From Fibrobacterota bacterium (GTDB taxonomy: Bacteria; Fibrobacterota; Fibrobacteria; UBA11236), in assembly GCA_028287505.1 (NCBI GenBank), contig JAQBPN010000104.1:1-56186 (forward strand): DNA of 56,186 nucleotides, written 5' to 3'. The notes beneath the pieces were generated by a model that was not told where the DNA came from, did no database searches, and saw only the letters and a program-made list of their open reading frames with translations. Positions 30,842 to 53,728 of the stretch are shown piece by piece. The position numbers and the translations under genes were made by a program. Positions within the stretch are counted from its first letter, which is position 1, and each line of letters starts with the position of its first letter.

Positions 30842-33229
30842 ATGTCCGTCCGCCTCCCCATCCTGTTGCTTGCGCTCCTTCCCGCCCTCACGGCGGCGCA
30901 AGTCACGGTGGGGGCGGGTTCATACCAGAACTCCGGGGGATTCGCCATCCCGGGGGGTACCGTATGGGTTACTGACGATTTCAAGCAGACTCCCAAGTCG
31001 GCCCAATGGTGGGCCACCCTCATCACCACCCAGTTCTCCGGCGAGTTGTACGCCCACCCGCTTTCCTTCAAGGCCGTGGCCAAAGGGCTGGAAGTGGGTT
31101 ATCCCGGAGCGGCCGCGGGCGACGGAAGCGGCTTCACCTCCGGCCACAAGGCGGCCTTGACCGTGGGCGTGGCGGGCATGAACGCGGACGCCGCGCGCGT
31201 CGCATCCTACTCCCATTGGGCCGTGACCGCCCGCTGGAAAGACGGAACCAAGGTGTTGGAAGCCACCATGGGCCACGGCCTGCCTTTCGCCTATTTCAAG
31301 ATCACGGGAGGGGACGCCTCCGTCACCTGCAACGGAACGATCTGGTACAACCAGGCCGGTACCTTGGGCGTGACCGTGGGGGACAAACACTTCGGCATCT
31401 TCGCGCCCACGGGATCGGTGTGGAGCGGAACCGGAACGGCGACGTCCTCGCTGAACGGCAAGGACTATCTGTCGGTGGCGGTATTGCCGGACAACACGCC
31501 GGAGACCCTGGCCTTCTTCCGCCGATACGCATTCGCCCACGTGCGCAAGACCGTGGTTTCCTGGGACTACCAGGAGGCCACGGCCCGGCTGGTCTCCACC
31601 TATTCCGTGGAAACGGACGTGAAGGAAGGCGCGGAGACGGGAACCGTGTTCGCTCTCTTCCGTCATCAATGGCCGGAGGCGGCCTCTCCCTTGACCGCGT
31701 ATTCCTACAAAAGCGCGCGCGGGGAAATGAAGGTGGCCGCGGGCCCATCATTTTCCACCGCCATGATCTTCAACGGGATCCTGCCCGCCATGCCCAACCT
31801 GGGAAGCGATCCGGAAAAATTGAAATCCCTGATCGCCAGCGCCGGAGGCGGCGTGGCCGGCGGCGACTCCTACAACAGCGGCAAGTCCATGGGCAAACTG
31901 GCCGCCCTGGCCCAAATCGCCGAGTTCGCGGGCAATACGGCCAAGCGGGATGCCATCGTGAAGTCCCTGGAGGCGGGCCTGGAAAGCTGGCTCACGGCCG
32001 GGGGCGGACAGCAACTCTGCTACAGCAAGACCTGGGGGGCCTTGATAGGTTATCCGGCTTCCTTCGGATCGGATACGCGCCTTTCCGATCACCATTTCCA
32101 TTTCGGGTATTGGATCATGGCCGCCGGCATCGTGGCGCAATGGGATCCCGCGTGGGCCAAAAAGGAGAAGTGGGGCGGCATGGTGGAGATGTTGATCCGG
32201 GAGGTGAACTCCCGGGACGACAATGATCCTTTGTTCGGCCGCTTCCGGTATTTCGACGCCTATGAAGGGCACGGTTGGGCGGACGGCGTGGGGTTCGATC
32301 GCGGCAACAACCAGGAGTCCTCTTCGGAATCGATGAACTGCAACGCGGGCATCATCCTGTGGGGCATCAACACGGGAAACAAGGCGGTACGCGACCTGGG
32401 GATATTCATGTACGTCAACGAAGCCCGTGCCATAGAGCAGTATTGGTGGGACGTGGACAAGGCGGTCTTCCCCGCGGGGTTCGGCCACAATGCCGTGGGC
32501 ATGGTCTGGACCAATGGCGGAGCCTACACCACCTGGTTTTCCGGGGATCGCTCCGCCATCCATGGCATCAACTTCCTTCCCATCACCGCGGGAAGCCTGT
32601 ACCTGGGACGCCATCCGGACCATGTGCTCAAAAATTACCAGGAAGGTTTCAGCGGCGGCTGGTCGGACCTGTTCTATGAATACCTGGCATTCGCCGATCC
32701 CGAACAGGCCGTGGCCAAGTACGGCGGCGGCGTGGGTTCCGAGGCCGGGGAGTCCCAGGCCCATACCTACCAGCATCTGAAAAGCCTGCAGGCGGTGGGC
32801 AGGCTGAATACGCAAATCGGCGGCAGCATTCCGTCCTTCGCGGTATTCGACAAGGCCTCCGCTCCCGGCGGCACGGCCGGCCTGCGGACCTACACGGCTT
32901 TCAATCCGGACGATGCCGCCGCCACGGTGACCTTCACCGACGGATTTTCCATGGAGGTCCCGGCCCACACCCAGATCAGCAAGCAGGGGCCGGTAAAGCC
33001 CATCGCCGTGCTGGCTCGCGGGAGGCATTTGCGAGCGGGTCCGCCGGCGGTCTGGAACGGCATCGCGGATCCCTACGGTCTGTTCCGGCAACCCCGGTTC
33101 CCGCTTTACGATGCGGGAGGAAGGCGCGCTTCGGGAGGGAGTAACCCGGACGCTACTGAGCCGGCCGCGGGTCGGTTGCGCATGCCCGGACACGGGGGAA
33201 TCTATCTGTCCGGTCCCGAAGGGAATTGA
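30842..33229 (+). CDS. GH81 endo-beta-1,3-glucanase
   Basis: This 795-residue secreted enzyme would hydrolyse beta-1,3-glucans such as laminarin, curdlan or fungal/algal wall glucan. A signal peptide (LPILLLALLPALTAAQ) is followed by the GH81 catalytic module over about residues 25-680. Diagnostic blocks are SDHHFHFGYWIMAAG (the catalytic Asp region), YEGHGWADG and GNNQESSSESMNC, where the glutamates include the catalytic pair. Residues about 710-795 (PRFPLYDAGGRRASGG) are a tail like those on the neighbouring secreted proteins. It starts four bases after the DUF5107 stop. The length is typical of the family. Confidence 0.93.
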   Translation: MSVRLPILLLALLPALTAAQVTVGAGSYQNSGGFAIPGGTVWVTDDFKQTPKSAQWWATLITTQFSGELYAHPLSFKAVAKGLEVGYPGAAAGDGSGFTSGHKAALTVGVAGMNADAARVASYSHWAVTARWKDGTKVLEATMGHGLPFAYFKITGGDASVTCNGTIWYNQAGTLGVTVGDKHFGIFAPTGSVWSGTGTATSSLNGKDYLSVAVLPDNTPETLAFFRRYAFAHVRKTVVSWDYQEATARLVSTYSVETDVKEGAETGTVFALFRHQWPEAASPLTAYSYKSARGEMKVAAGPSFSTAMIFNGILPAMPNLGSDPEKLKSLIASAGGGVAGGDSYNSGKSMGKLAALAQIAEFAGNTAKRDAIVKSLEAGLESWLTAGGGQQLCYSKTWGALIGYPASFGSDTRLSDHHFHFGYWIMAAGIVAQWDPAWAKKEKWGGMVEMLIREVNSRDDNDPLFGRFRYFDAYEGHGWADGVGFDRGNNQESSSESMNCNAGIILWGINTGNKAVRDLGIFMYVNEARAIEQYWWDVDKAVFPAGFGHNAVGMVWTNGGAYTTWFSGDRSAIHGINFLPITAGSLYLGRHPDHVLKNYQEGFSGGWSDLFYEYLAFADPEQAVAKYGGGVGSEAGESQAHTYQHLKSLQAVGRLNTQIGGSIPSFAVFDKASAPGGTAGLRTYTAFNPDDAAATVTFTDGFSMEVPAHTQISKQGPVKPIAVLARGRHLRAGPPAVWNGIADPYGLFRQPRFPLYDAGGRRASGGSNPDATEPAAGRLRMPGHGGIYLSGPEGN

Positions 33230-35585: not shown

Positions 35586-35825
35586 CGGACTCCGCGCCCA
35601 CAATCCGGGAATGGGGAGCGCACCGCTCTCATTCCCACCCGACACCAGTCACTTTCAAGTTACCCCTCCCCGAGCCCGGCCTTTCATGGCCGGAGTGTGA
35701 ATGTTCGTGCCCGATCCGAACAGGGGAAACCACGTTCTCTCTGGAAAAAAATTTATTTTCCTTGTTTTTTGAGTCAATTTTGATGATTTTAAACACTAGC
35801 CAGCATATGGATGTAGTAGTATATT

Positions 35826-35926
35826 GAATCCCATCATTCCGAAGGGAACCACTCCAGCGAAGCCGACGAACGGTGCCACCGCTGGGATTCCCGCTAGGCG
35901 GGCCGTCCCGAAGCCAGGTAACCTGG
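35826..35926 (+). promoter_or_regulatory. structured 5' leader of the porin-ABC operon (candidate riboswitch or attenuator)
   Basis: An 8-base stem GAATCCCA (35826-35833) / TGGGATTC (35883-35890) encloses two small hairpins: TTCC-GAAG-GGAA near 35837-35848 and CCG-ACGAA-CGG near 35863-35873. A competing fold pairs GGGAA (35844-35848) with TTCCC (35888-35892) and CCAGCG (35854-35859) with CGCTGG (35880-35885). Next come CCCGC-TAG-GCGGG (35890-35902) and the palindrome CCAGGT-A-ACCTGG (35914-35926). Mutually exclusive stems are typical of riboswitches. I could not match a known class. There is no gene in 35586-36146. Confidence 0.5.
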
Positions 35927-36146: not shown

Positions 36147-37511
36147 TTGTTGTCCAGAAACGCCTACTTCAGACTTGCCGCGATGCTGACCTTGGCCGCG
36201 ATTTCAGCCCGGTCCGAATCCAAACCCGATACCGCCTCAGCCATCGCCGCCCGTACCGATACGACGGCAGCGGCGGAAGAACAGAAAGCCTCCGTGGCCG
36301 ACGTACAAGGGGTGCAAACCGATCTTGAAAACTACAAGTTCCAGGTCCAACGCGATCGGGACCTCAAAACCGCCCAATCGACCCGATCCCTGTTGGTCAC
36401 GGGAGTGGTGCAGGGCCGGGGCGGATGGACCGAGGCCCGGGCCGCCGGCGCATATCATAAACATACGGCGGGGGAAGTGGCCACGGCCCTGGTCGGATTC
36501 AGCGGCAACCTCTATCGGGATTACAGGGATGCGCGCAACCTCACCTATGCTCTCCGCTTCGTAGCCGCGCCGAGCGGCGGCTCCGCGCCCGTAAACCTGT
36601 TGGATGCGACGGTGGGCTATTCGCTGCTACGATCCCTGGCTTTGGAAGACCAGCGGCTGGATGTTTCCTTCGGGCAACAACAACTGCCCTTCGGATTGGA
36701 AGCGCAGACCACGGATGAATTCAAGCCGGTGATCACCAACGCCCAATTCGTCGGGGCCCTGGGATTGGGGCCGCGCCAGATCGGACTGATCGTCCGGGGG
36801 GATTTCCTTCCCCGGGTCGACTACGGCTACAACTACCGCGCGCCAATCATCCAGTATGTCCTGGGAGTGGTGAACGGCAACGGCCAGAATGCCACCGACG
36901 ACAACGACGCCAAGGACGTGATCGGCCGGCTGGTGTTGACCATTCCCAGCGACTACAATTCCTGGTTGCGCCAATTCGCCGTGGGAGCCACCTATTACCG
37001 CGGCTGGGCGAATCTCTCCGCCCTCAAGCCCGGCGCCACGCCCGCCGCGGCCGCCACTCCGGCCGTCGTCTCCCTGGGAGACAAGATCCGCACCGGCGTG
37101 GATGTCTATTACAACCATCACCCCTTCGGGCTCAACTATGAATGGGTCCTTGGGGAGGATCAGTTCAACCCCGCGACCGCGACCGTATCCAACTATACGA
37201 CCGGCGTCCGAAAGTCCAACGGACAGGTTCTCACCCTCTTCTACAATTTCGGCGAGCAGTTCCTGCGCGGTTACCGCGCCCAAGGACGCTACGACGACTG
37301 GTGGCCCAAGTCCCTGCAGCCCTTCCTGCGCATCGACCGGTGGGATCCGGATATCCGCGCGGAGAACAATGAACTGGATGTCTACACCGCGGGCGTGAAC
37401 TTCTTTTTCGCCGAAACCTCGAAACTCCAATTCAACTACAACCGACGCGTGGACAACGCGAAGGGCGCCAAACTCGACGATGCGCAAGGCCAGATCCAGT
37501 TCGGATTCTGA
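36147..37511 (+). CDS. outer-membrane porin (OprP/OprO-like)
   Basis: This 454-residue barrel has a signal sequence (NAYFRLAAMLTLAAISARS) and a short alpha-helical, Ala/Glu/Gln-rich segment (about 30-75), as in trimeric porins with a periplasmic coiled coil. The beta-strand region includes LDVSFGQQQLPFGLEAQTT, which resembles phosphate-selective-type porins, and AVGATYYRGWANLSA. It ends IQFGF with a terminal phenylalanine, the usual barrel assembly signal. The start is a TTG at 36147, seven bases after AAGGAG; the next ATG (36183) has no ribosome site and would truncate the signal. It is the first gene of the transport operon and should bring the substrate across the outer membrane for the ABC importer. 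Confidence 0.8.
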   Translation: MLSRNAYFRLAAMLTLAAISARSESKPDTASAIAARTDTTAAAEEQKASVADVQGVQTDLENYKFQVQRDRDLKTAQSTRSLLVTGVVQGRGGWTEARAAGAYHKHTAGEVATALVGFSGNLYRDYRDARNLTYALRFVAAPSGGSAPVNLLDATVGYSLLRSLALEDQRLDVSFGQQQLPFGLEAQTTDEFKPVITNAQFVGALGLGPRQIGLIVRGDFLPRVDYGYNYRAPIIQYVLGVVNGNGQNATDDNDAKDVIGRLVLTIPSDYNSWLRQFAVGATYYRGWANLSALKPGATPAAAATPAVVSLGDKIRTGVDVYYNHHPFGLNYEWVLGEDQFNPATATVSNYTTGVRKSNGQVLTLFYNFGEQFLRGYRAQGRYDDWWPKSLQPFLRIDRWDPDIRAENNELDVYTAGVNFFFAETSKLQFNYNRRVDNAKGAKLDDAQGQIQFGF

Positions 37512-37549
37512 CTTCGGAAAACTTCACGGAAGAACATAAGGAGATTGCA

Positions 37550-38635
37550 ATGAAAAACCGAATCATAAAAATCGCGACCTTGGCCTTGGCGACGGCGGCC
37601 CTCGGCGGCGCCTATGCGGAAAACCCGAAAGTCATCCGCTTCGGATACCCCGGTACGGGCACGGGAGGCAGACCCTATGTCGGAGGCAGCTTCGTCGCCT
37701 ACGCGCGGGCGGCCGGACTTCTTGAGCAGGAGTTCAAGAATGACGGCATCAAGGTGGACTGGACTTTCTTCAAGCTGGCCGGTCCCGCCATCAATGAAGC
37801 CTTCGCGAACAAACTGCTGGACATCTCCCTGTTGGGCGACCAGGCCGCCATCGCCGGCAAGGCGGGCGGACTGAACACCAAAATCATCCTGGCGACGGGG
37901 GTGCGCGGCGTGACCTATGTTGTGGTCCCATCCGATTCGCCCATCCAATCGCTCCAGGATCTCAAGGGCAAGCGCGTGGCCTTGTTCCGGGGAACGGCCA
38001 TCCAACTGGCCGCCAACCGCATCCTGGAGGCCAACGGATTGTCGGAAAAGGATATCCGCTCCGTCAACATGGACGGCCTGGCGGCCCAGGCGGCATTGGC
38101 TTCCAAGGACATCGACGCCCTTTTCACCATCGGCTCGGGGGCCTTGCAGCAACAGGACCAGGGCATCGGCCGCATCATCTATTCCGGCAAGCAGGACGAC
38201 CGGGTAACGGGATACGCCTCGGGCCTGGTAGTGGACGGGGATTTCGAAAAGAACAATCCGCAAATCGTCCAGCGCATCGTGAACGTGCTGGTCAAGGCGG
38301 CCCAATGGTCCACGGACGACAAGAACCGGGAGGCCTTGCTGCAATCCTGGGCCAAATCCGGGACCTCGTATTCGGCGTTCAAGCGGGACCTTGAGGGCCA
38401 GGATTTGCAGGCGATTCTTTCTCCCGTCATCGACGATTATTTCCGGGCCACCTGGAAAAAGGCGGTCTTCGACGTCAAGCGCTTCAAGTTCATCCGCAAT
38501 GACGTGAACGTCGACGAATGGATCGAACCGAAGTATGCGCGGAATGCCCTGCATTCGCTCAATCTGGAAAACAATTGGGTCCGGTACGCGGCCGATGGCA
38601 AGCCCCTGCAAGTCACGGCGGTGCAGGAGCCATGA
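37550..38635 (+). CDS. SsuA/TauA-like ABC importer substrate-binding protein
   Basis: This 361-residue periplasmic binding protein has a signal peptide (IIKIATLALATAALGGAYA). The fold is that of the nitrate/sulfonate/taurine group: RFGYPGTGTGGRPYVGG, DISLLGDQAAIAGKAGGL, DLKGKRVALFRGTAIQLAANRIL. The substrate is probably an anionic organic molecule such as a sulfonate or related compound, but the binding residues cannot be assigned. It begins 38 bases after the porin, preceded by AAGGAG, and its stop overlaps the first permease by ATGA. The C-terminal 60 residues (RFKFIRNDVNVDEWIEPKYARN) are characteristic of this group. Confidence 0.88.
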   Translation: MKNRIIKIATLALATAALGGAYAENPKVIRFGYPGTGTGGRPYVGGSFVAYARAAGLLEQEFKNDGIKVDWTFFKLAGPAINEAFANKLLDISLLGDQAAIAGKAGGLNTKIILATGVRGVTYVVVPSDSPIQSLQDLKGKRVALFRGTAIQLAANRILEANGLSEKDIRSVNMDGLAAQAALASKDIDALFTIGSGALQQQDQGIGRIIYSGKQDDRVTGYASGLVVDGDFEKNNPQIVQRIVNVLVKAAQWSTDDKNREALLQSWAKSGTSYSAFKRDLEGQDLQAILSPVIDDYFRATWKKAVFDVKRFKFIRNDVNVDEWIEPKYARNALHSLNLENNWVRYAADGKPLQVTAVQEP

Positions 38636-39483
38636 GCAAGCCCGCCTTGTCCGCGCGCGGTCCAGCCGCCCGGGGCTTCGCGGCCCGGCCCTTCGCCACC
38701 CAGCGCCTCGCCGCCCGGCGCTTCGCCGGCCGGGCCTTGTCGGCCATGATTCTGCCCGCCGCGCTGCTGCTGTTGTGGCAAATCGCATCGACACGGGGTT
38801 GGACCCCGCGGCAGATTCTGCCCCCGCCGAAAATAGTCTGGGCCAGCTTCCTGGACCTCGCTTCCTCGGGGGAATTGCTGACGCATATCAAAGCCAGTCT
38901 CTTGCGGGTGGCGATCAGCTTTCTGATCGGTTCCGGCGCCGGTCTGGTATTGGGTTTGGGCATGGGCCTGTCGCGCCGCGTGGAGGATCTTTTCGGCGTG
39001 GCGTTCCATGCGGTCAACCAGGTTCCCACCTTGGGATGGCTCCCCGTGATGATCGTGGTGGTGGGGCTGAATGATACCCTCAGCTACATCCTGATCGCGC
39101 AGGCCGTATTCGTTTCCGTGGCCATCAATACCCAACGGGGCCTGAGGCAGACGCCGGAGCGTTTGGTGGAAGTCGCGCGCGTCTTCCGCCTCACCCGCGC
39201 CCAGCTTTTGCGCAAGGTCATCCTCCCTTCCGCGGCGCCCCAGATTTTCACGGGCCTGCGCTTCGGCCTGGCCAATGGTTGGGTGTCCCTGGTAGTGGTG
39301 GAGTTGCTGATTTCTTCGGAAGGTCTCGGCTATCTGATGAGCTGGGGCAGACAGGCATTCCAATTGGACCTGGTGCTGGTCGCCATCCTGGTGGTGGGCG
39401 TCATCGGTTTGGCAATGGACGCGGGCCTGGCCCGCCTCGAGGGTTTATTCAGCCGATGGCAAACGGAAAAGAGGTTCGCATGA
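38632..39483 (+). CDS. ABC transporter permease (SsuC/TauC-like)
   Basis: This 283-residue inner-membrane subunit has about six membrane segments (MILPAALLLLWQIAST, VAISFLIGSGAGLVLGLGMG, LGWLPVMIVVVGL). The cytoplasmic EAA loop VARVFRLTRAQLLRKVILPSAAPQIFTGL contacts the ATPase (quoted in part: QLLRKVILPSAAP). The N-terminal 35 residues are Arg/Ala-rich and unusual (repeated AARxFA), a low-complexity cytosolic tail. It starts by ATGA overlap with the binding protein and ends by ATGA overlap with the second permease, indicating a coupled operon. Confidence 0.9.
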   Translation: MSKPALSARGPAARGFAARPFATQRLAARRFAGRALSAMILPAALLLLWQIASTRGWTPRQILPPPKIVWASFLDLASSGELLTHIKASLLRVAISFLIGSGAGLVLGLGMGLSRRVEDLFGVAFHAVNQVPTLGWLPVMIVVVGLNDTLSYILIAQAVFVSVAINTQRGLRQTPERLVEVARVFRLTRAQLLRKVILPSAAPQIFTGLRFGLANGWVSLVVVELLISSEGLGYLMSWGRQAFQLDLVLVAILVVGVIGLAMDAGLARLEGLFSRWQTEKRFA

Positions 39484-40265
39484 ACGGCTTGACCGGTCTT
39501 TCCACGCGAAGGTTGCTTTTGAAATCCCTGCTTCCGGCGCTCATCCTGGGCTACTACGCTTTGGCCACCCGCAACCACTGGCTCAATCCCCGGATCTGGG
39601 TGACGCCGGGACAAATCTGGCATGCCGCGGCCGGTCTCAACCGGGACGGGTTCCTGTGGTTGGCGGTGGGTGAAAGCCTCTTGCGCGACCTGATCGGATT
39701 CACCTTGGGTACCGCATCGGGCCTCCTCATCGGAGGCGCTCTGGGCCTGTCGCGATGGGCGGATCGCTTGGGCACGCCCACCTTGCACTTCCTCAAGGCC
39801 ATCGCCATCTTCGCATGGATCCCCATGTTGACGATGTTTTTCGGGATCGGCGAGCTTTCAAAAATCGTATTCATCGCGCTATCGGCCTTCTATCCCGTGG
39901 CCTTGAATACCCTGGAAGGCATCCGCTCCGTGCCTCCGTCCCAAAGGGAACTGGCGCGGGTTTACCGGCTGAACCCTTGGCAGAGGCTGAAAAAGGTGAT
40001 CGCGCCTTCGGCCTTGCCGTCCATACTCACCGGGATCCAGTTGGCGCTGATCCTCACCTGGCTTTCCACCGTGGGCGTGGAATATTTCATGAGCGCGGGG
40101 CCCAGCATCGGCGGCATCCTGCTCAACGGCGCCGAATCCTTCCATCTCGACCTGGTTTTCATCGGCGTGATCCTGTTGGGGGGAATCGGTTTCGCCCTCG
40201 ATCAATTGGCCCATGGCGTGGGCCGCCACCTGCTCCGCAACCGTCCCCAAACCCTTAACGCATGA
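39480..40265 (+). CDS. second ABC transporter permease (SsuC/TauC-like)
   Basis: This 261-residue inner-membrane protein has six hydrophobic segments and the EAA loop ARVYRLNPWQRLKKVIAPSALPSIL. It differs enough from the first permease (LTMFFGIGELSKIVFIALSAF, VGVEYFMSAGPSIGG) that the pair probably forms a heterodimer, rather than the single-permease arrangement common in this family. It starts by ATGA overlap with the first permease, and AGAGG lies upstream. Two different permeases served by one ATPase gene point to an asymmetric transporter. Confidence 0.9.
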   Translation: MNGLTGLSTRRLLLKSLLPALILGYYALATRNHWLNPRIWVTPGQIWHAAAGLNRDGFLWLAVGESLLRDLIGFTLGTASGLLIGGALGLSRWADRLGTPTLHFLKAIAIFAWIPMLTMFFGIGELSKIVFIALSAFYPVALNTLEGIRSVPPSQRELARVYRLNPWQRLKKVIAPSALPSILTGIQLALILTWLSTVGVEYFMSAGPSIGGILLNGAESFHLDLVFIGVILLGGIGFALDQLAHGVGRHLLRNRPQTLNA

Positions 40266-40275
40266 GGCGAACGTT

Positions 40276-41100
40276 ATGACCACTTCCGGAACGATCGACA
40301 TCCGCAACCTTGGCAAAGCCTATTCTTCCCCCCAGGGCGGCTTCCAGGTATTACAAGGACTCAACCTGACCATCCGGCCCGGGGAGTTCGTCAGCATCGT
40401 GGGCGGGAGCGGCTGCGGCAAGTCCACCTTGCTTAGACTCATCAGCGGGCTGGAAGAGGATTACCAGGGGGACATCCGCATCGGCGGAGAACGCGTGCGC
40501 GGCACCAGCCTGGACCGCGGCATCGTGTTCCAGGATCTGCGTTTGTTGCCTTGGCTGAACGCCGAGCAGAACGTGGCCCTGGCCCTGGAGAACGCGCCGC
40601 TCTCCAAAGCGGAGAAGCGCCGGGCGGTGGCGGACCACCTGGAAATGGTGGGATTGGAGCGCTTCGCCAAGGCCTATCCGCACCAGCTTTCCGGAGGCAT
40701 GAGCCAGCGGGTCGCCATCGCGCGGGGGCTGGTGAACAAACCGGAGTTGTTGCTGCTGGACGAACCGTTCGGGGCCCTGGACGCCCTGACCCGCTCGCAT
40801 TTGCAGGAGGAGTTGGAACGCGTTTGGAAGGAGGAGGATATCACCATGGTGCTCGTGACCCATGACGTGGAAGAAGCCGTTTTCCTGGCGGACCGCGTGA
40901 TAGTGATGGAACCGGGACCCGGCCGTATCCGGCGCGAGGTGAAGGTGCCCCTCCCGCGGCCCCGGCGGCGCGGCGATCCGCGCTTCGTGGAAATCAAAGA
41001 GGATATCCTGCGGGATTTTTCATCTTCCCGGACTTCCGTGAACGGGTACGCCGCGGCCGGACAAGCGGCGGCGGAACCGCAGTTGGGATGGGCCACATGA
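40276..41100 (+). CDS. ABC transporter ATPase (SsuB/TauB-like)
   Basis: This 274-residue nucleotide-binding subunit is complete: Walker A GGSGCGKST, Q loop FQDLRLLPW, signature LSGGMSQRVAIARGLV, Walker B LLLLDEPFGALD and switch histidine VTHDVEEAV. It powers import through the two permeases. The ATG at 40276 follows TGAGGCG just after the second permease. The C-terminal 50 residues (SSSRTSVNGYAAAGQAAAEP) are a low-complexity tail not needed for activity. Its stop overlaps the PpiC gene by ATGA. Confidence 0.93.
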   Translation: MTTSGTIDIRNLGKAYSSPQGGFQVLQGLNLTIRPGEFVSIVGGSGCGKSTLLRLISGLEEDYQGDIRIGGERVRGTSLDRGIVFQDLRLLPWLNAEQNVALALENAPLSKAEKRRAVADHLEMVGLERFAKAYPHQLSGGMSQRVAIARGLVNKPELLLLDEPFGALDALTRSHLQEELERVWKEEDITMVLVTHDVEEAVFLADRVIVMEPGPGRIRREVKVPLPRPRRRGDPRFVEIKEDILRDFSSSRTSVNGYAAAGQAAAEPQLGWAT

Positions 41101-41954
41101 GGTGGGCGGCGGAAAAAGGGAAGCATCTGATCCATAAACTCCTCCGGGAACCATTCCTGCATTTCCTGGTCCTGGGAGCGGCCATCTACGGGATTGCCGA
41201 AGCTGTTTCAGGCAATCCGGAACGGTATCGGATCCGCTTGGGGAAGCGGGAAGAGACGGATCTGGCGCGGACCTATCTGCGCCAATTCGGGAATGCGCCC
41301 AGCGATGGGCAACTCCGGGACCTGCTGGATCACCGTATCCGGGAAGAGATCTGCTTCCGGGAAGGGGTGGATCTCGGATTGGATCGCGAAGACGAGATCG
41401 TCCGCAGGCGCATCGCGCAGAAGTTCGAATTCCTGCAACAGGATCGGACCATCGCCAGGGAGCCCGCGGAATCGGAACTGCGCGACTGGTTCATCGCGCA
41501 CCGGGACCTGTATTCGGAGCCGGAACGGGTGTCCTTCACGCATATCTATTTCTCGCCGGACAAAGGCGGGCTTGAGGCCGCCGCGAAACGCGCGGCCGAA
41601 GCGTTGGCTTCCCTGGCGGATGAGCCCGCGGACAGGGCGCCGGAGCGCGGCGATGCGTTTCCGGACCAATATGATTACGCGGTCCTGAGCCAGGCGGAAG
41701 TCAAAAGGGTCTTCGGGGAATCCCCGATAGCGGAAGCCCTTTTCCAGGTAAAGCCGGGAATCTGGGCCGGTCCCTTCCATTCCGGATTCGGAGAGCATCT
41801 CGTGCGGGTGATCGGAAAGGAGCCCCGGCAGGTCACGGTCTTTTCCGATATCCGGGAAAAGGTCCGGGGCGATTGGCTGGAAAACCGGCGCCGGGAGGAA
41901 AACGCCGCCGCGTTCGACAAGGTCAAATCTCTCTATACCGTGGTGCGCCAATGA
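41097..41954 (+). CDS. membrane-anchored PpiC-like peptidyl-prolyl isomerase
   Basis: This 285-residue protein has an N-terminal membrane anchor (FLHFLVLGAAIYGIAEAV) and a periplasmic part. Residues about 40-125 look like the N-terminal chaperone segment of SurA/PpiC proteins (DLLDHRIREEICFREGVD). A parvulin-like domain follows with VSFTHIYFSPD, then FPDQYDYAVLSQAEVKRVFG and PGIWAGPFHSGFGEHLVRV. The isomerase region seems shortened, so it may act mainly as a chaperone, perhaps for the next gene's product. ATGA overlaps join it to the ATPase and to the HupE-like gene. Linkage of a PpiC-like gene to a HupE/UreJ_2 gene is something I have seen in other genomes, recalled without a search. Confidence 0.75.
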   Translation: MRWAAEKGKHLIHKLLREPFLHFLVLGAAIYGIAEAVSGNPERYRIRLGKREETDLARTYLRQFGNAPSDGQLRDLLDHRIREEICFREGVDLGLDREDEIVRRRIAQKFEFLQQDRTIAREPAESELRDWFIAHRDLYSEPERVSFTHIYFSPDKGGLEAAAKRAAEALASLADEPADRAPERGDAFPDQYDYAVLSQAEVKRVFGESPIAEALFQVKPGIWAGPFHSGFGEHLVRVIGKEPRQVTVFSDIREKVRGDWLENRRREENAAAFDKVKSLYTVVRQ

Positions 41955-42967
41955 CGGGCCGATCGGGATCGAAATCGGGATGGGCCGCGATCGTTCTCCC
42001 GGCGATCCTGTCCGTACTGCCGGTGGGGGCCCATGAAGTGCGACCCGCCCTGCTGGAAATCTCCGAGAGCCCGGATCATGGCTTTGCCGTCCAATGGAAG
42101 CAGCCGCGCCGGGGCGAAGCCGCGATCAGGCTCGTCCCCCATCTGAGCAACGGCTGGCTGGAAACCGCGCCCACCGAAACCGATGCGAATCCGGCTTACG
42201 CCATCAAAGTCTGGAACGACCTCCGGACCGGCGCCTCCGGGCTCGAAGGCCAGACGGTGACCATCGAAGGTCTGGAGCAAACCATGACCGATGTCCTGAT
42301 CGGGATCACCCTGGCGGACGGCCGGAAACTCAATGAAGTCTTGCGCCCGAAGTCCCCTTCCCTCCGGATCGATTTCCGGGAACGCCATGGCCTCCCCGTT
42401 TCCGCCTATCTGACTTTGGGGATAGGACATATCCTCACCGGGATCGATCATCTGCTCTTCGTATTCGGATTGCTGCTGTTGGTGGGATCCCGATGGCGCT
42501 TGCTGCAAACCGTCACCGCCTTCACCGTGGCCCATAGCCTTACTTTGGCGGGCACGGCCTTGGGCCTCATCCATGTGAAATCCGCCGTCGTCGAAACGCT
42601 GGTGGCGTTGAGCATCGTGTTCCTGGCCCTGGAACTGATCCACTTGCGGCGGGGCCGGGCGGGGTTGGCGGTCCGCTTCCCTTGGCTCATCGCCTTTTCC
42701 TTCGGGCTGTTGCATGGCATGGCTTTCGCCGGGGCGCTTGCGGAAGTCGGACTGCCGTCCAACGACATTCCCCTCTCTCTGCTCCTGTTCAACGTGGGCG
42801 TGGAAGCGGGGCAGCTCATTTTCGTCGCCGGCATCCTTGCGATCGCCTGGGCCATCCGCCGCATTCCGCCGGCCCTGCCCGGCTGGACCGGGTGGATTGC
42901 TCCCTACGGCATCGGATCCTTCGCCGCCTTCTGGTTCATCCAACGCTTTTCCATCCTGATACACTGA
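41951..42967 (+). CDS. HupE/UreJ_2 family membrane protein
   Basis: This 338-residue protein has a signal sequence and an N-terminal periplasmic domain (about 25-165; HEVRPALLEISES). About six or seven membrane segments follow, starting with the conserved GIGHILTGIDHLLFVFGLLLLV and containing AHSLTLAGTALGLIHV and FGLLHGMAFAGALAE. The repeated histidine/aspartate motifs resemble HupE/UreJ nickel or cobalt permeases. The long N-terminal domain is typical of the HupE_UreJ_2 branch, whose substrate is not established. It starts by ATGA overlap with the PpiC gene. It may load or supply a metal to the DUF3604 enzyme encoded next, which has a metal-site pattern. Confidence 0.8.
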   Translation: MTGRSGSKSGWAAIVLPAILSVLPVGAHEVRPALLEISESPDHGFAVQWKQPRRGEAAIRLVPHLSNGWLETAPTETDANPAYAIKVWNDLRTGASGLEGQTVTIEGLEQTMTDVLIGITLADGRKLNEVLRPKSPSLRIDFRERHGLPVSAYLTLGIGHILTGIDHLLFVFGLLLLVGSRWRLLQTVTAFTVAHSLTLAGTALGLIHVKSAVVETLVALSIVFLALELIHLRRGRAGLAVRFPWLIAFSFGLLHGMAFAGALAEVGLPSNDIPLSLLLFNVGVEAGQLIFVAGILAIAWAIRRIPPALPGWTGWIAPYGIGSFAAFWFIQRFSILIH

Positions 42968-42993
42968 CCTTCAAACCATCCAAAGGAGTCCTC

Positions 42994-44850
42994 ATGAAAA
43001 CGAAACCACTGACCTCGCTGGGAGCCCTGGCCCTCTTGGCCGCAAGCACCTCGTTGGCGGCGAATCCGCCCAGCGCCCCTTCCCGCCAGGCGTACTACGG
43101 CGATTTGCATTTGCATACGTCCTACTCATTCGATGCGTACGTGATGATGGGCACCAAAACCACTCCCGATCAAGCCTACCGTTTCGCCAAGGGGGACACG
43201 ATCCATTTTCTGGGAGAGGCGGTGCGCCGCAAGGAGCCTTTGGATTTCCTGGCCGTGACCGATCATTCCGAGAACATCGGCGCGTTCCGCGATCTGGATG
43301 ACCCCAACAGCGAAATCTCCAAAAGCGAACTGGGACGGACCGTCCACAAACAGGGGCCCAAGGTGTTCTGGAGCATGCTGAAAGAGTTGCTCAGCGGGAA
43401 ACCCGTGCAAGGGTTCGATCCCAAGCCGGCCTCCCGATCCGCCTGGCAGCGGTACGTGGAAGCCGCCAACGCCAACTACCAGCCGGGCAAGTTCACCACC
43501 TTCATCGGTTATGAATGGACTTCCATGCCGGACGGACAGAACCTCCACCGCAACGTCATCTTCCGGGGCGATAAGGCGCCCTATCCGTTCACATCCGGCG
43601 ACTCCTGGAAGCCCGAGGATCTCTGGTCCTTCCTGGACTCCCAGCGCAAGCAGGGCGTGGAAGCCTTGGCCATTCCCCACAACGCCAACGCCAGCAACGG
43701 TCTCATGTACGATTGGAACAACAGCGACGGCAGGCCCATCGATCAGGCCTACGCCCTGGAAAGGGCCGAGAACGAACCGTTGTCGGAGATTTCCCAGAAC
43801 AAGGGATCTTCCGATACCCATCCGGCCCTTTCGCCCAACGACGAGTTCGGCAACTTCGAGATCTTCGATCATCTCCTGATCTCGCCGAAGAAGAGCGCGC
43901 CCGGCGGAAGTTACGTGCGTGACGCCCTGGGCCGCGGCCTGGAGATCCAAGCGAAGACGGGAACCAATCCTTTCAAGTTCGGGGCGGTGGGCGGCAGCGA
44001 TTTCCACGGAGGCCTCTCCCAATCGGACGAAGGCGCCTATGAGGGCAATATCGGCGGCAATGACAGCGCCTCCCGGAACCGTTTCAAGCTGGTGTTCGCC
44101 GGAAACAACGCCGGAGCCAAAGAGGACAAGGGCGACGGGGAACACGGCCCCTTCAAGGTGAGCGAAACGAGTTCCGGCAACCTGGCCGCGGTGTGGGCGG
44201 AGCAGAACACCCGGGAGTCGATCTACGACGCGCTGCGCCGCAAGGAGACTTTCGCCACCTCCGGCACGCGGCTCAAACTCAGGCTTTTCGGAGGCTGGGA
44301 ATACGGCCGCGAGCTTCTGAAAGATCGGGACTGGGTGAAAACCGCATACGGCAAGGGCGTGCCCATGGGCGGGGATTTGCCCACTCCGTCGGCGGCGTCC
44401 CGCGCCCCGCGTTTCGTCGCCTGGGCTGCGAAGGATCCGGACGGCGCCAACCTGGACAGGGTGCAAATCATCAAAGTCTGGATCAAGAACGGCAGGCACG
44501 AAGAGAAGATTTTCGATGTCGCCTTTTCCGGGAACCGCAAGGCCGGCGCCGCGGGCAAGCTGAAGCCGGTAGGTAACACGGTGGATACCCGCACCGGAAA
44601 ATACGCGAACTCCATCGGAGGCGCTGAATTGTCCGCGGTATGGGAGGATCCGGAGTTCGACGCGTCCGCGCCCGCCGTCTATTACCTCCGGGTGCTGGAA
44701 ATCCCCACTCCGCGTTGGTCGACCCTGGTCGCGGTCCGGAACGGTACCCCGCTTCCAAAAGAGGCGCCCGCCAGCATCCAGGAACGCGGCTGGTCCTCCC
44801 CCATCTGGTACACGCCCGTCCAGCCGACAGGCACTCCCGCCAAAGGTTGA
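42994..44850 (+). CDS. secreted DUF3604 PHP-like metallohydrolase
   Basis: This 618-residue exported protein has a signal peptide (LGALALLAASTSLAA). The N-terminal YYGDLHLHTSYSFDA, then FLAVTDHSEN, AIPHNANASN and VGGSDFHGG form the metal-binding His/Asp pattern of the PHP phosphoesterase superfamily, spread over about residues 35-350. DUF3604 is not assigned to a specific reaction. The C-terminal part (about 400-618) includes a beta domain and the conserved RGWSSPIWYTPV close. It follows the HupE-like gene by 26 bases with AAAGGAG before the ATG. Most likely it cleaves a phosphate-, sulfate- or carboxylate-containing organic compound in the periplasm. Confidence 0.85.
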   Translation: MKTKPLTSLGALALLAASTSLAANPPSAPSRQAYYGDLHLHTSYSFDAYVMMGTKTTPDQAYRFAKGDTIHFLGEAVRRKEPLDFLAVTDHSENIGAFRDLDDPNSEISKSELGRTVHKQGPKVFWSMLKELLSGKPVQGFDPKPASRSAWQRYVEAANANYQPGKFTTFIGYEWTSMPDGQNLHRNVIFRGDKAPYPFTSGDSWKPEDLWSFLDSQRKQGVEALAIPHNANASNGLMYDWNNSDGRPIDQAYALERAENEPLSEISQNKGSSDTHPALSPNDEFGNFEIFDHLLISPKKSAPGGSYVRDALGRGLEIQAKTGTNPFKFGAVGGSDFHGGLSQSDEGAYEGNIGGNDSASRNRFKLVFAGNNAGAKEDKGDGEHGPFKVSETSSGNLAAVWAEQNTRESIYDALRRKETFATSGTRLKLRLFGGWEYGRELLKDRDWVKTAYGKGVPMGGDLPTPSAASRAPRFVAWAAKDPDGANLDRVQIIKVWIKNGRHEEKIFDVAFSGNRKAGAAGKLKPVGNTVDTRTGKYANSIGGAELSAVWEDPEFDASAPAVYYLRVLEIPTPRWSTLVAVRNGTPLPKEAPASIQERGWSSPIWYTPVQPTGTPAKG

Positions 44851-44864
44851 AGCTTCCCGCATAA

Positions 44865-44906
44865 CCATCCTCCCATGCCCGATTTTTTCAGGCAGAGGAG
44901 GATTGG
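44865..44906. repeat. large inverted repeat after the DUF3604 gene
   Basis: CCATCCTCC-CA-TGCC (44865-44879) pairs with GGCA-GA-GGAGGATTGG (44891-44906) with one bulge, around a T-rich loop. No T tract follows the plus-strand arm, so termination is uncertain, but the element could separate the main operon from the YezD gene. Confidence 0.55.
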
Positions 44907-44946
44907 GCCTTGCCAAATTCCAAAATCAAATGTTTATTTCTACTTC

Positions 44947-44965
44947 ACATATAGGTTTTATATGT
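44947..44965. promoter_or_regulatory. palindrome upstream of yezD-type gene (operator candidate)
   Basis: ACATATA (44947-44953) and TATATGT (44959-44965) are exact inverted repeats around GGTTT in an AT-rich stretch 151 bases before the YezD start. TATATG-like sequences nearby could also serve as a -10 element. This is a candidate dimer-binding operator; its regulator is not known. Confidence 0.45.
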
Positions 44966-45115
44966 ATATGAATTCCGACATTTTTCCACTCCCGGTTCCG
45001 GCCTATTGTTGTGGCCCAAATCCTGGCCGATGCTTGCGCGTCGACCCTGGACCTGCATAGCCTTTGCACCACGACAAAAACACCTTTCAAACGGAACAAC
45101 TACCGGAGACAAGAA

Positions 45116-45295
45116 ATGCCAGACAACTACGCGAACAAACCGAACGACTATGGGCCGATCCGGGAAATGGGCCCCAACGAAATCCAATTCATTCTGAATG
45201 CCCTTAAGGGATTGCGCTACGGGTCGGTGGAAATCATCGTCCAGGATTCACGCATAGTGCAGATCCAGCGACTGGAAAAACATCGGCTCGGCTAG
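45116..45295 (+). CDS. YezD-family (DUF2292) small protein
   Basis: This 59-residue protein reads IREMGPNEIQFILNALKGL, then RYGSVEIIVQDSRIVQIQRLEKHRLG. The YGSVEIIVQDxxxVQIxxxEKxR pattern is the hallmark of the YezD/DUF2292 family, which I associate with sulfate, cysteine and sulfonate genes in other bacteria. It has no signal or membrane segment. Its ATG at 45116 follows GGAGACAAGAA. Its position downstream of the SsuA-like importer cluster supports a sulfur link for that system. Its biochemical role is unknown. Confidence 0.85.
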   Translation: MPDNYANKPNDYGPIREMGPNEIQFILNALKGLRYGSVEIIVQDSRIVQIQRLEKHRLG

Positions 45296-46689: not shown

Positions 46690-47832
46690 ATGAAGAAATC
46701 ACACGTGTTGTCTACACTGATGGTTTGCTGCGCCTTCGCATCCGCCGAGACCCAAAAGGTGGGATGGTCGTTGGGATATTATTGCGGTTGGGATCAGGAC
46801 GGCGGGTTCAAGCCCGCGCAAATCAACTGGAAGGCGTTCACGCACATCGCCCATTTCACGGTTTTCCCCAATAACGACGGCTCCTTGGACGTCAACGGCA
46901 ACGGACTGACGGACGACAATTGCAAAGCCGCCGTGGCCGAAGCGCACAAGAACAACGTCAAGATCGTATTCTCCATCGGAGGCGCCCAGGCCAAGGACCG
47001 CTTCAAGAATGCCTGCGCCCCGGAAAACATCCACAAGTTCGTCAAGAACCTGCTGGATTTCATGCGCAAGTACGGCTACGACGGCATCGACACGGATTGG
47101 GAAGAGAACTTCGACGATGCCAAGTTCCTGGCCCTGCACAAGGAGTTGCGGGATTCCCTGGACAAAATCTCGCCCAAGCCCTTGCTCACCATCGCCGGCG
47201 GGGGTTATTTCGCGGCCCACTGCTATACGGCGCACCCTTACGTGGACATGATGAACACCATGAGCTACGACGTGAACCTGGGAGGCATGCCCCAGGAAAT
47301 GAAGGAGTTCACCAGCCGCGGGGTGCCCAAGGAGAGGCTCGGCGTCGGCATCGGCATCGGCGGCGGCGGAAGCATGGTGGACGTGGATTCCGCGACCGCC
47401 AAGGGCAAGGTGCTTTTCGCCATCAACAACGGCTTCGGAGGCGTGATGCAATGGGCGGTCCAGGGCGGCGCCCGCAACGTGCAGATCTTCAAGATGCTGG
47501 AACAGTTCCACCCCACCGTGGCCTCGGTCATCTTCGCCGACGGCAAACTGCGGGTGGTCAACGATCCGGGCCTGGCCGTGGCCCGCAATACCATAACGGG
47601 CATGCAGGAGGTGCGCTACCGCATCCCCGCGTCCCAGGGCAGGGCCATGGTGGACGTAAGCCTGTTCGATACCCGCGGAACCTTGCGGGGACGGCTCTTC
47701 CACGGGTACAATGAACCGGGCGCCTACGCGCTTCCCCTGGCGGCCGGGAACTCCCTCCGCCCGGGAGCCTATATCGTGAAACTGTCCAACGGGTCCGCCG
47801 CGCAAGCGGCGACGGCCGGAATCGTTCCCTAG
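46690..47832 (+). CDS. GH18 chitinase
   Basis: This is a 380-residue secreted glycoside hydrolase with a signal peptide (HVLSTLMVCCAFASA). The GH18 barrel starts GWSLGYYCGWD and contains KIVFSIGGAQ and the catalytic motif YDGIDTDWEENF (DGxDxDxE intact, glutamate as acid/base). MNTMSYDVN and GVMQWAVQG complete the usual strand set. It should cleave chitin or chitooligosaccharides, feeding the NagB-PIG-L pathway. From about residue 300 a beta tail follows (VRYRIPASQGRAMVDVSLFDTRG), like other sorting-type tails here. GGAGGG precedes the ATG, and a CCCTG-ATTGA-CAGGG hairpin lies just in front of it. Confidence 0.92.
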   Translation: MKKSHVLSTLMVCCAFASAETQKVGWSLGYYCGWDQDGGFKPAQINWKAFTHIAHFTVFPNNDGSLDVNGNGLTDDNCKAAVAEAHKNNVKIVFSIGGAQAKDRFKNACAPENIHKFVKNLLDFMRKYGYDGIDTDWEENFDDAKFLALHKELRDSLDKISPKPLLTIAGGGYFAAHCYTAHPYVDMMNTMSYDVNLGGMPQEMKEFTSRGVPKERLGVGIGIGGGGSMVDVDSATAKGKVLFAINNGFGGVMQWAVQGGARNVQIFKMLEQFHPTVASVIFADGKLRVVNDPGLAVARNTITGMQEVRYRIPASQGRAMVDVSLFDTRGTLRGRLFHGYNEPGAYALPLAAGNSLRPGAYIVKLSNGSAAQAATAGIVP

Positions 47833-47863: not shown

Positions 47864-49135
47864 ATGCATTCCATAACCAGCCTTTCCCATTCGCGCCGAG
47901 CGCGCGCGCTCTTGTCCGCTTGCGCGGCGGTCTCCGCCCTGCTTTCCTTCCATTGCGACAAGGGCGTCACCGATAACCCGCCGGCCAAACCGATCTTCGT
48001 TCCCGCCTTTTCCGCCACTTCGGCGGAAGTGCGCGATTTCATCGCCGCGGGCAAGGGCGGTAGCAAGGCCAAGCTGGTCTACATCGACAGGACCCGGGCT
48101 TCCGAAGAATTGTGCTACGTGGACTTCTCCGAAACCGGCGCGCCCGCAATCCACGTCATCGCGGCGGCCAAGAATCCGGAAGTACCGGTGATTTCCCCGG
48201 ACGGCAATTGGGTGGTCTACGCTTCCGGCACCGGCACGGAAGCGGGAAGTTCTCCCGGCACGCGCAGCTCCGTCTACCTGGTGAAAATGGAAGAAGCGGC
48301 CCAGCCCGTGCTCGTGGCCGCGGACAGCGCCTGCGAGCCGCGCTTCGTGCAAAACCCCACGGGCAAAATGGCCATCGTCTACCCCACCCAGTGCCCGGAC
48401 CTGGCCTGGGAGAATCATGGCCGGACCATGGAAGTGGACGTGGACGTTTCCGGAGCCGTCCCGGTCCCGGGAACGCCCAAGGCGCTGGTGACCTCGGGAG
48501 GCTATACGGGCGGACTTTCCTGGGACGGCCGTTACGTATGCGGCGGCGGCGCCCACGTCGCCATGCTGGACATGCAATCCGAAAAGGGCCGGCCGGACAC
48601 ACTCTCCTTCAAGGGAATCCAATCCTGCAACGCATCCGTCTCCTCCAGCCGTGTGCATACCAATACCATGATGTACCTGAATACGGAAGGCTCCCTCCCC
48701 GCCATCAACGGCGGCAAGAAATGGGGAGAGTGGCAGACCATCCTCATCAGCGACGGCGCGAAGAATCTGATGAAGGGGTATACTTTTCCCGCCGCCTTCA
48801 AATATCCCGTGGAAACCGAACCCGCTTCCCTGTCGAGCGTCAGATGGCATCATTGCGAATGGTCCAACCATCCGCATTTCGCCACCGCCACCCTGAACGT
48901 GGATCGATTTTTCAAATCCGCCACTGGGCCCGGGTTTGACAACACCGGGTTCCAGGAGCGCATCTACCTGCTCAATCTGAAGGATTCCACCTATCTGGAA
49001 GTGCTGCGGCCGGACGCCATCCAAAAACCCTCCGGGACCGGAATAGGCGATGCGGGATTCTACTGGCCCTGGTTGTGGGTGGAAGTGCCCGCCGGCTTCG
49101 CGGAAACGCCCGGCTGGCTCAGCCCCATCCTCTAA
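47864..49135 (+). CDS. TolB-like lipoprotein, Fibrobacter-type paralogous family
   Basis: This 423-residue lipoprotein has the signal LLSACAAVSALLSFHC. The repeated ISPDGNWVVYAS and LSWDGRYVCGGG units indicate a TolB-type beta-propeller. It shares with the protein at 51011-52249 the sequence of features Y(T/R)GG(L/I)SxDG, then QxCNxS, then WSxxPxFATA. This order recalls a large Fibrobacter paralogous family of unknown function that I remember as TIGR02171. It starts 31 bases after the chitinase and probably belongs to the same transcript. No catalytic residues are visible; a role in binding cell-surface or polysaccharide material is a guess. Confidence 0.7.
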   Translation: MHSITSLSHSRRARALLSACAAVSALLSFHCDKGVTDNPPAKPIFVPAFSATSAEVRDFIAAGKGGSKAKLVYIDRTRASEELCYVDFSETGAPAIHVIAAAKNPEVPVISPDGNWVVYASGTGTEAGSSPGTRSSVYLVKMEEAAQPVLVAADSACEPRFVQNPTGKMAIVYPTQCPDLAWENHGRTMEVDVDVSGAVPVPGTPKALVTSGGYTGGLSWDGRYVCGGGAHVAMLDMQSEKGRPDTLSFKGIQSCNASVSSSRVHTNTMMYLNTEGSLPAINGGKKWGEWQTILISDGAKNLMKGYTFPAAFKYPVETEPASLSSVRWHHCEWSNHPHFATATLNVDRFFKSATGPGFDNTGFQERIYLLNLKDSTYLEVLRPDAIQKPSGTGIGDAGFYWPWLWVEVPAGFAETPGWLSPIL

Positions 49136-52249: not shown

Positions 52250-52702
52250 GGATAAGATGCCTCTGTCCTAAAACTAATGCCGATGCCCGCGCGAAAACAA
52301 AGAGGAGGCCGGCCCCCTTAAATATCCGTTTCCAATCAAAAAACATGTTAAGGAATCTTTATTGAGGGGTTTTTGATTTCACAAAAGTGAATCTGCATGC
52401 GGGAAAAGATAGTAGCACGCTGCCACCCCTGTAATCCGGTCCGAATACGCCTCCGGCCGGCCGATATACTGTCCAAGTTCCAAAAAGCCCGGTAACCCAA
52501 ATGGGATGATCCGCGGACGTTTGAGGATCGGCCCCGACTTGACCCGATTTGACCGCCAAAAATGGCAGGCAAGGCGGCAATCCATGCCATAAATTGATTC
52601 CACGAGGACGACTCGATCCGGGAAGGGTGCGGACATCGGCTTTAATGCCCGAGGTTGCATCCAGGGGGTTCCGGGAACAATCACTGTCAGGGGGAATTTC
52701 AT
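52250..52702. other. intergenic region between divergent lipoprotein and esterase genes
   Basis: No gene is supported in 453 bases. It contains the small inverted repeat TTCAC-AAAA-GTGAA (52377-52390), an AT-rich stretch near 52320-52370 suited to promoters, and a GC-rich middle part with CCGGCCGGCC near 52452. No known riboswitch was recognised. Confidence 0.4.
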
Positions 52703-53728
52703 ATGGCGCTCAAGAGGGTGTGCCTTCTTATCTGTCTTTCGCTTGTCTTCCGGGTTGCACCGGTGCATGGCGTGATACTGAACGGGACCAATGTGCCGAA
52801 GGAGAAGTTCGTGGTCTACATCCTGATCGGCCATTCCAACATGGCGGGCGTGGATTTGTCCCATTCGGATCCGGTCTCCATCCCGAACGGATGGAACTAT
52901 CCCGTGGCATCCAAGCAATGGGTCCTGGCCAAGGAGCCGGTGAACAACAAGTCGGCCGGACTTTCCGGAAATGGATGCGCAGGCCCGGGGATGCCGTTCA
53001 TCAAAGCCATGGCCGCGGCCTATCCCGACTACTATTTCGGCGTGGTGACCAACGCCAGCCTGTCCGCCACCTGTCGGGGATTGAATACCGGCAACAACAG
53101 TTCCGGACTCGATCCTTCCGACAACCGCTACTGGGACTCCACCTACCTGTACGATCAGATCATCACCTCGGCCAAAGCGGTGCAAAAGGACGCAATGATC
53201 GGCGGCATTCTGTGCATGCTGGGAACCGTGGACGCCACCCGCACCAACAGCACGGTCTGCAAGGCCTTCTCCGACGACATCGCCAGCCTGGCCAAGTTCT
53301 TCCGCCGCGATCTGAACCTTCCCAATCTGCCCTTCATCATGGGCGAATACGAAGCAGGAGCGAGCGGATCCTTCGCCACCACCTTGCCCCTGCCGGCCAT
53401 CATCCGGGACCAGATCGTGCTGGTTCCCTCCAAGCTGCCGTTTTCCGCGACCGTGAACTCAGTGGGCATCCAGATGCTGGACGATCACCATTACACGGGG
53501 AACGTGGGACAGCAGGAGTTCGCCAAGCGGGTAGTGGCCGTGATCCAGGACAAGAAGTTCTTCCCGCCGGCGGCGACATCGATCACCCTGGCGCCCCCCA
53601 TGCGCGCCGCCGCCGGGTACACCGGCCACTGGCTCCTTGCGGAGCCGGGCGCGATGACCTTGCGGAGCGATGACGGAGCTTATCTGATCAACGGGACCCG
53701 CTTCGGGTCCGCAAGGATCAGGGAGTGA
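52703..53728 (+). CDS. secreted SASA/CE6-like SGNH esterase
   Basis: This 341-residue exported protein has a signal peptide (KRVCLLICLSLVFRVAPVHG). LIGHSNMAGVD corresponds to the block I serine motif of the sialate O-acetylesterase (SASA) family, where GQSNM is usual; here GHSNM replaces it. MLGTVDATRTNS may be block III, and LDDHHYTGNVGQQEFAKR holds the catalytic Asp-His. The probable reaction is removal of acetyl groups from a polysaccharide such as xylan. AGGGGG precedes the ATG at 52703. Its 3' end overlaps the converging lipoprotein gene by 11 bases. Confidence 0.8.
   Translation: MALKRVCLLICLSLVFRVAPVHGVILNGTNVPKEKFVVYILIGHSNMAGVDLSHSDPVSIPNGWNYPVASKQWVLAKEPVNNKSAGLSGNGCAGPGMPFIKAMAAAYPDYYFGVVTNASLSATCRGLNTGNNSSGLDPSDNRYWDSTYLYDQIITSAKAVQKDAMIGGILCMLGTVDATRTNSTVCKAFSDDIASLAKFFRRDLNLPNLPFIMGEYEAGASGSFATTLPLPAIIRDQIVLVPSKLPFSATVNSVGIQMLDDHHYTGNVGQQEFAKRVVAVIQDKKFFPPAATSITLAPPMRAAAGYTGHWLLAEPGAMTLRSDDGAYLINGTRFGSARIRE

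Follow-up and report, generated by a model that had tools for sequence, protein, structure and literature searches.

A PpiC, HupE and DUF3604 gene cassette lying behind a putative organosulfur importer in a Fibrobacterota genome

Introduction

HupE-family permeases are known as importers, and relatives of HupE import nickel. How metal is supplied to exported metalloenzymes other than heme and copper proteins is poorly known. Here we analyze a run of genes in which a HupE_UreJ_2 permease lies between a PpiC-type peptidyl-prolyl isomerase and an exported protein of the DUF3604 family, all three behind the genes of a porin and an ATP-binding cassette (ABC) importer. The run lies in the assembly of a Fibrobacterota bacterium (GCA_028287505.1; 6.07 Mb, 98.7% complete) on contig JAQBPN010000104.1, of which we analyzed positions 1 to 56,186, referred to below as the window.

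The closest described relatives of the permease are the anglerases Ang-1 and Ang-2, which carry a HupE/UreJ-2 permease domain and are proposed to capture and import metal. Ang-1 has a solved structure (9GCE), the closest structural match reported for RbAng-1a is ZrgA, and Ang-2 is reported in Actinomycetota only (PMC12537917, 2025). Neither PpiC nor DUF3604 is mentioned in the main text of that paper (PMC12537917). For DUF3604, the openly accessible literature gave a single list of transposon insertions in Chlamydia, in which the 622-residue DUF3604 protein CT_425 of Chlamydia trachomatis has an insertion at its last codon (PMC11925237), and it gave nothing on PF12228 or PF13795. On the uptake side the nearest systems are SsuABC and TauABC, and the DUF2292/OscA family has been tied to sulfur starvation in Pseudomonas, where oscA and cysP form a transcription unit (Viti 2009).

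Results and discussion

The run is made up of two modules

An earlier note on this DNA, made from the sequence alone, had read eight of its genes as a single uptake and processing system. We find instead two modules, A (porin and importer) and B (PpiC, HupE and DUF3604), not one pathway. The result is more interesting than first stated in that module B is a three-gene partnership, and less so in that the eight genes taken together are a local fusion. At all other loci examined the cassette stands without module A, with no module-A-type importer near it, while G012, a genome of the same class of Fibrobacterota, has a related run (porin, two binding proteins, two permeases, ATPase) and carries neither DUF3604 nor HupE_UreJ_2. 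The composite is known in only two species of one genus, and an integrated pathway as a conserved system is thus not upheld. All eight genes are nevertheless present and co-directional, and every family named for them stands when judged by curated models with their cut-offs. The features of the run are as follows:

36147..37511, + strand, outer-membrane (OprO/P) porin of the Porin_O_P family, module A (PF07396, 32.7 bits, cut-off 20.9)
37550..38635, + strand, SsuA-like periplasmic binding protein, module A (PF09084, NMT1)
38632..39483, + strand, ABC permease 1, module A (PF00528)
39480..40265, + strand, ABC permease 2, distinct from permease 1, module A (PF00528)
40276..41100, + strand, ABC ATPase of the nitrate/sulfonate/taurine type, module A (PF00005)
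41088..41954, + strand, membrane-anchored PpiC-type peptidyl-prolyl isomerase, module B (Rotamase_2, PF13145, 60.5 bits, cut-off 27)
41951..42967, + strand, class-i HupE_UreJ_2 permease, module B (PF13795, 151.4 bits, cut-off 24.5)
42994..44850, + strand, exported DUF3604 protein, predicted PHP-type metallohydrolase with a C-terminal beta domain, module B (PF12228, 694 bits)
45116..45295, + strand, YezD/OscA-like small protein, DUF2292 (PF10055, 55.1 bits)

PpiC, class-i HupE and DUF3604 occur together

We drew two classes of HupE_UreJ_2 proteins with a profile of the window's HupE. Class i matches the profile over its full length, including a periplasmic domain of ∼120 residues, whereas class ii matches in the membrane part only. 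A PpiC gene lies immediately upstream of class i in 48 of 51 loci and of class ii in none of 28, and one of the three class-i exceptions has a DUF3604 gene separating PpiC from HupE. A general linkage of HupE_UreJ_2 with PpiC was therefore rejected, being restricted to class i except at the divergent long-DUF3604 loci described below.

The same specificity holds when whole genomes are counted. Among 232 gammaproteobacterial genomes, a full-length class-i HupE (full length being judged by inspection of the matches) is found in 10, all 10 of which are DUF3604 positive. Among 241 alphaproteobacterial genomes it is found in 21, with DUF3604 present in all 21 and adjacent in all 21. Fisher tests that ignore kinship give 6e-16 for the gammaproteobacterial and 1.5e-26 for the alphaproteobacterial set. 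Since several class-i profile rows came from the sampled gammaproteobacterial genomes, the alphaproteobacterial set, which is nearly independent of the profile, provides the cleaner test. The neighborhood comparison that had been proposed for DUF3604, HupE_UreJ_2 and PpiC thus returned a strong and specific association, and DUF3604 was present in all 31 genomes with a full-length class-i HupE. In the other direction, a HupE_UreJ_2 protein is present in all 36 DUF3604 genomes tested (35 over the cut-off), and class-i HupE in 34 of the 36 DUF3604 genomes fetched, even where DUF3604 is located elsewhere in the genome.

A survey limited to one genome per species yielded 59 DUF3604 loci, and in ∼20 of them both PpiC and HupE adjoin DUF3604; the same arrangement is seen at three of the four alphaproteobacterial plasmid loci that carry annotation. 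The cassette spans Fibrobacterota, Pseudomonadota, Acidobacteriota, Planctomycetota, Binatota, and one Myxococcota-type genome, about six phyla. PpiC/SurA-like and HupE_UreJ_2 genes also neighbor a divergent DUF3604-like subfamily of ∼770 residues (L202:3215-7408, L203:3524-7898), so the pairing extends past the DUF3604 subfamily of the window. Provisionally, we regard PpiC-HupE-DUF3604 as a widespread and specific three-gene partnership, apparently undescribed in the openly accessible literature. A partnership this close to one to one gives both DUF3604 and HupE_UreJ_2 a testable function. It also divides HupE_UreJ_2, most of whose members lack a known role, into classes with different jobs, and it warns against inferring a hydrogenase or urease from a "HupE/UreJ" annotation.

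Variants of the cassette were also seen. PF12228 matches the ∼770-residue family in pieces only, and, judging by coordinates, G370, G456, G472, G528, and G553 may have DUF3604-like/HupE pairs of a similar kind. An Acidobacteria cassette (L016:12105-16527) has three DUF3604 copies, one of them between PpiC and HupE, and on a Rhizobium plasmid PpiC is followed by three consecutive HupE/UreJ genes (L062:12123-14364); extra small HupE-like genes occur in L009 and L028 as well. In one 333-residue open frame (G106:C2:46048-46476), an N-terminal fragment match to PF12228 overlaps the C-terminal match to HupE_UreJ_2. Sulfatases lie within a few kilobases of DUF3604 in eight loci (including L008, L013, L051, L053, L021, and L022), and the idea that DUF3604 is constantly paired with a sulfatase was rejected, these eight being the only such loci and mostly lacking the cassette.

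The proteins of module B

In the window's HupE, the signal peptide is predicted to be cleaved at A|HEVRP, which would leave a histidine (His1, codon at 42032) at the N terminus. A histidine directly follows the predicted signal peptide, whose cleavage is read from the sequence, in all 46 aligned class-i proteins, and the same alignment shows an invariant set of residues in the membrane part (H133-x5-D139-H140, H168, H228, and E258). A sequence search of the PDB returned no solved structure for HupE. The structural model (predicted local distance difference test [pLDDT] 90.5) shows a beta-sandwich followed by membrane helices, and its best solved match is the zinc protein ZrgA (8f1b; E = 0.011, probability 1.00).

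The protein thus resembles the anglerases in its signal peptide followed by an invariant histidine, its periplasmic beta-sandwich nearest ZrgA, and its C-terminal PF13795 membrane domain. It differs in the length of the periplasmic domain, ∼120 residues instead of ∼176. The class-i profile of 46 sequences does not match 9GCE at any E value up to 1, whereas class-ii proteins, serving as a positive control, do match it (2e-28 and 1e-8). By this sequence comparison, made with Ang-1, the N-terminal-His domain of class i is distinct from that of the published Ang-1.

The DUF3604 protein has the PHP ligand motifs GDxHxHT, TDH, H205, and GSxDxH, and residues H15, H17, D60, H67, H205, D312, and H314 are invariant in 78 sequences, as are the motifs. 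A PDB sequence search for DUF3604 found none. Its model (pLDDT 91.1) matches the two-domain PHP-like structure 3e38 (E = 1.2e-7, probability 1.00), the superposition being partial with template-modeling (TM) scores of 0.30 and 0.48. DUF3604 thus shares metal motifs and a two-domain fold with the PHP superfamily (3e38-like phosphoesterases, CehA/McbA) but is exported, has ∼600 residues, and matches CehA_McbA weakly (19 bits, cut-off 80). Motifs and model support an exported PHP-type metal-dependent hydrolase. The relatives of PpiC among solved structures are SurA, Cbf2, and PrsA. Two suggestions of the earlier note, a PHP-like DUF3604 and a HupE that belongs with metals, are borne out.

Module A is likeliest an organosulfur importer

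The binding protein scores 150.2 bits against SsuA_fam, under the cut-off of 163.5, and its best solved structure match is the SsuA structure 3uif (E = 1.3e-45). The remaining importer proteins, the ATPase and the two permeases, belong to the nitrate/sulfonate/taurine type. Plasmid orthologues with 44 to 47% identity and a similar layout occur in Burkholderiaceae. The layout of L278 matches module A, and so does that of L277, the two middle genes of which are annotated as hypothetical. The Paraburkholderia orthologue cluster adjoins a luciferase-like monooxygenase (LLM) gene and the sulfite dehydrogenase gene soxC, the Caballeronia cluster adjoins TauD/TfdA and LLM genes, and the porin-importer run of G012 lies near cysteine synthase A (cysK) and a fumarate-reductase-like flavoprotein. 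Because of these family matches, the neighbors of the orthologues, and the tie of DUF2292/OscA to sulfur starvation, organosulfur uptake is the likeliest role of module A, in line with the importer type first proposed.

Module A shares the binding protein, permease, and ATPase families of SsuABC and TauABC. It differs from SsuABC in having two distinct permease genes instead of one, in including a porin, in a binding protein that falls under the SsuA_fam cut-off, and in the lack of a desulfonating enzyme beside it. The YezD gene resembles OscA as a DUF2292 member adjoining an anion importer but reaches 40.1 bits against the OscA equivalog cut-off of 85, and it is a member of DUF2292 only. Over its second half, the binding protein (37550-38635) shows a further match, to the desulfinase DszB (E = 5e-10).

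Conservation of the run and apparent gain of the cassette

Among relatives that have the cluster, the nearest is "Fibrobacteres bacterium RYN_349," which represents a second species of the genus. It has an identical gene order with 53 to 88% protein identity for the eight genes (82% for the porin, in L002), and its YezD lies in the same place with 79% identity (L002/L071). Since the entire order is kept at this divergence, the run is not due to chance. ATGA overlaps are present at three of the seven junctions (binding protein/permease 1, permease 1/permease 2, and PpiC/HupE) and not at most of them, as had been described; the ATPase and PpiC reading frames overlap by 13 bases, and the remaining three junctions are gaps of 38, 10, and 26 bases. 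With overlaps and gaps no larger than 38 bases, a single transcript from porin to DUF3604 (36147-44850) is plausible. YezD does follow the run, as described, but 265 bases downstream of DUF3604 and behind its own AT-rich, partly conserved block, and is therefore probably transcribed separately. Its start is likelier the ATG at 45116 than the open-frame start at 45011.

DUF3604 is present in two of six genomes of the genus and the binding protein in the same two, and the cluster is accessory within the genus. Every member has one class-ii HupE, and the two genomes with DUF3604, and no others, have a class-i HupE in addition. Their DUF3604 groups within Methylococcaceae (five-row clade, support 100/99), and the Methylococcaceae relatives have an identical PpiC-HupE-DUF3604 order, so module B was apparently gained horizontally as a unit from a Methylococcaceae-like source.

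How the two modules may work

Tentatively, we favor reading the run as a fusion in which module A, an organosulfur uptake system for times of sulfur starvation, precedes module B, a cassette of an enzyme and the means of its maturation. The porin would admit, the SsuA-like binding protein capture, and the two-permease transporter import an organosulfur anion, for example a sulfonate or sulfate ester. Module B, gained horizontally in the genus, would have been placed behind it, and its inner-membrane PpiC-HupE pair would serve DUF3604. The near-obligate co-occurrence argues for this service. A helper shared among clients is indicated because one pair commonly accompanies several DUF3604 copies (full-length matches of DUF3604 to HupE, ∼23 to 9 in Gammaproteobacteria and ∼50 to 25 in Alphaproteobacteria, ∼73 to 34 in total) and because the pair is retained even where DUF3604 lies elsewhere. 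From these patterns we infer that PpiC folds the exported DUF3604 and that HupE may manage or supply metal for its PHP site by way of the predicted metal-binding N-terminal His. The place of the cassette behind an importer suggests that DUF3604 might free an importable organosulfur compound from a periplasmic precursor, the weakest step of the scheme. It is possible, if rather unlikely, that PpiC and class-i HupE are a dedicated membrane machine folding and metallating exported PHP hydrolases, with DUF3604 as an obligate client; such a machine would give HupE permeases another type of metal domain with an N-terminal His, and its metal would go to a periplasmic family and not to cytoplasmic nickel or cobalt enzymes. 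With a folding helper and a metal permease of its own, such a cassette offers a promising system for studying how exported metalloenzymes are metallated.

Several observations weigh against the favored reading. Most other genomes have no sulfur importer in the vicinity of DUF3604, and copies outside the cassette are grouped with TonB, short-chain dehydrogenase/reductase (SDR), P450, and acyl-CoA genes, as in the islands of marine Gammaproteobacteria. DUF3604 occurs without a full-length class-i HupE in two gammaproteobacterial genomes (G105 and G176, with fragmentary matches) and four alphaproteobacterial ones (G369, G472, G497, and G553); in G483 the class-i match is partial and the DUF3604-like matches are no more than weak. 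By analogy with the known importers of its family, HupE may move metal inward. TauD was not found in the window genome, nor was SsuD, the sole luciferase-like (Bac_luciferase) protein being of the MsnO8 family and no search having been made for other desulfonation routes; the absence of TauD and SsuD speaks against a plain sulfonate route.

The alternative that survives best, though we think it unlikely, is that the modules have unrelated functions and merely share a transcript or genomic island. Each is independent elsewhere, module B apparently came in horizontally, and no further genome with the fusion was found, but the ATPase and PpiC frames overlap and the join of A and B is conserved in the second species at 53 to 88% identity. 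Metal scavenging, in which DUF3604 would hydrolyze an organic chelate or metallo-compound and so release a metal for import by HupE, with PpiC-HupE not maturing DUF3604, is quite unlikely. It would agree with the nickel-importing relatives of HupE, with the N-terminal His domain as a means of metal capture, with the extra HupE genes of some cassettes, and with the capture and import proposed for anglerases (PMC12537917). Several divergent DUF3604 copies per HupE, however, are better explained by a shared helper than by a single fixed substrate. Carbon-catabolic islands that lack metal genes hold DUF3604 copies as well, and PpiC is left without a role. That all eight genes evolved for one organosulfur substrate, cleaved by DUF3604 before import, is improbable, as the tight spacing, the order kept in two species, the joint gain or loss of binding protein, second HupE, and DUF3604 within the genus, the sulfatases near DUF3604 at eight other loci, and the YezD gene behind the run are set against modules that exist apart elsewhere, a fusion found in two species only, and a cassette found in many settings without sulfur genes.

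Upstream region and surroundings

Upstream of the porin, ∼35 bases (window 35790-35840) are nearly identical between the two species and hold a promoter-like match:

35797..35825, + strand, candidate sigma-70-like promoter (consensus match only; two-species conservation)

The match lies ∼320 bases upstream of the porin start, which would make an unusually long leader, one without a known RNA family, and no riboswitch or other known RNA was found in the 30-50 kb part of the window. The conserved blocks ahead of the porin and of YezD were compared for a common regulatory motif, which was rejected because its alignment needs many gaps and fails in the second species. A phage origin was rejected for lack of a PHROG match. 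The cluster is flanked by GH81-type and GH18 glycoside hydrolases, a TIGR02171-related lipoprotein, and a SASA esterase (30842-33229, 46690-47832, 47864-49135, and 52655-53728), surroundings of a polysaccharide-degrading kind.

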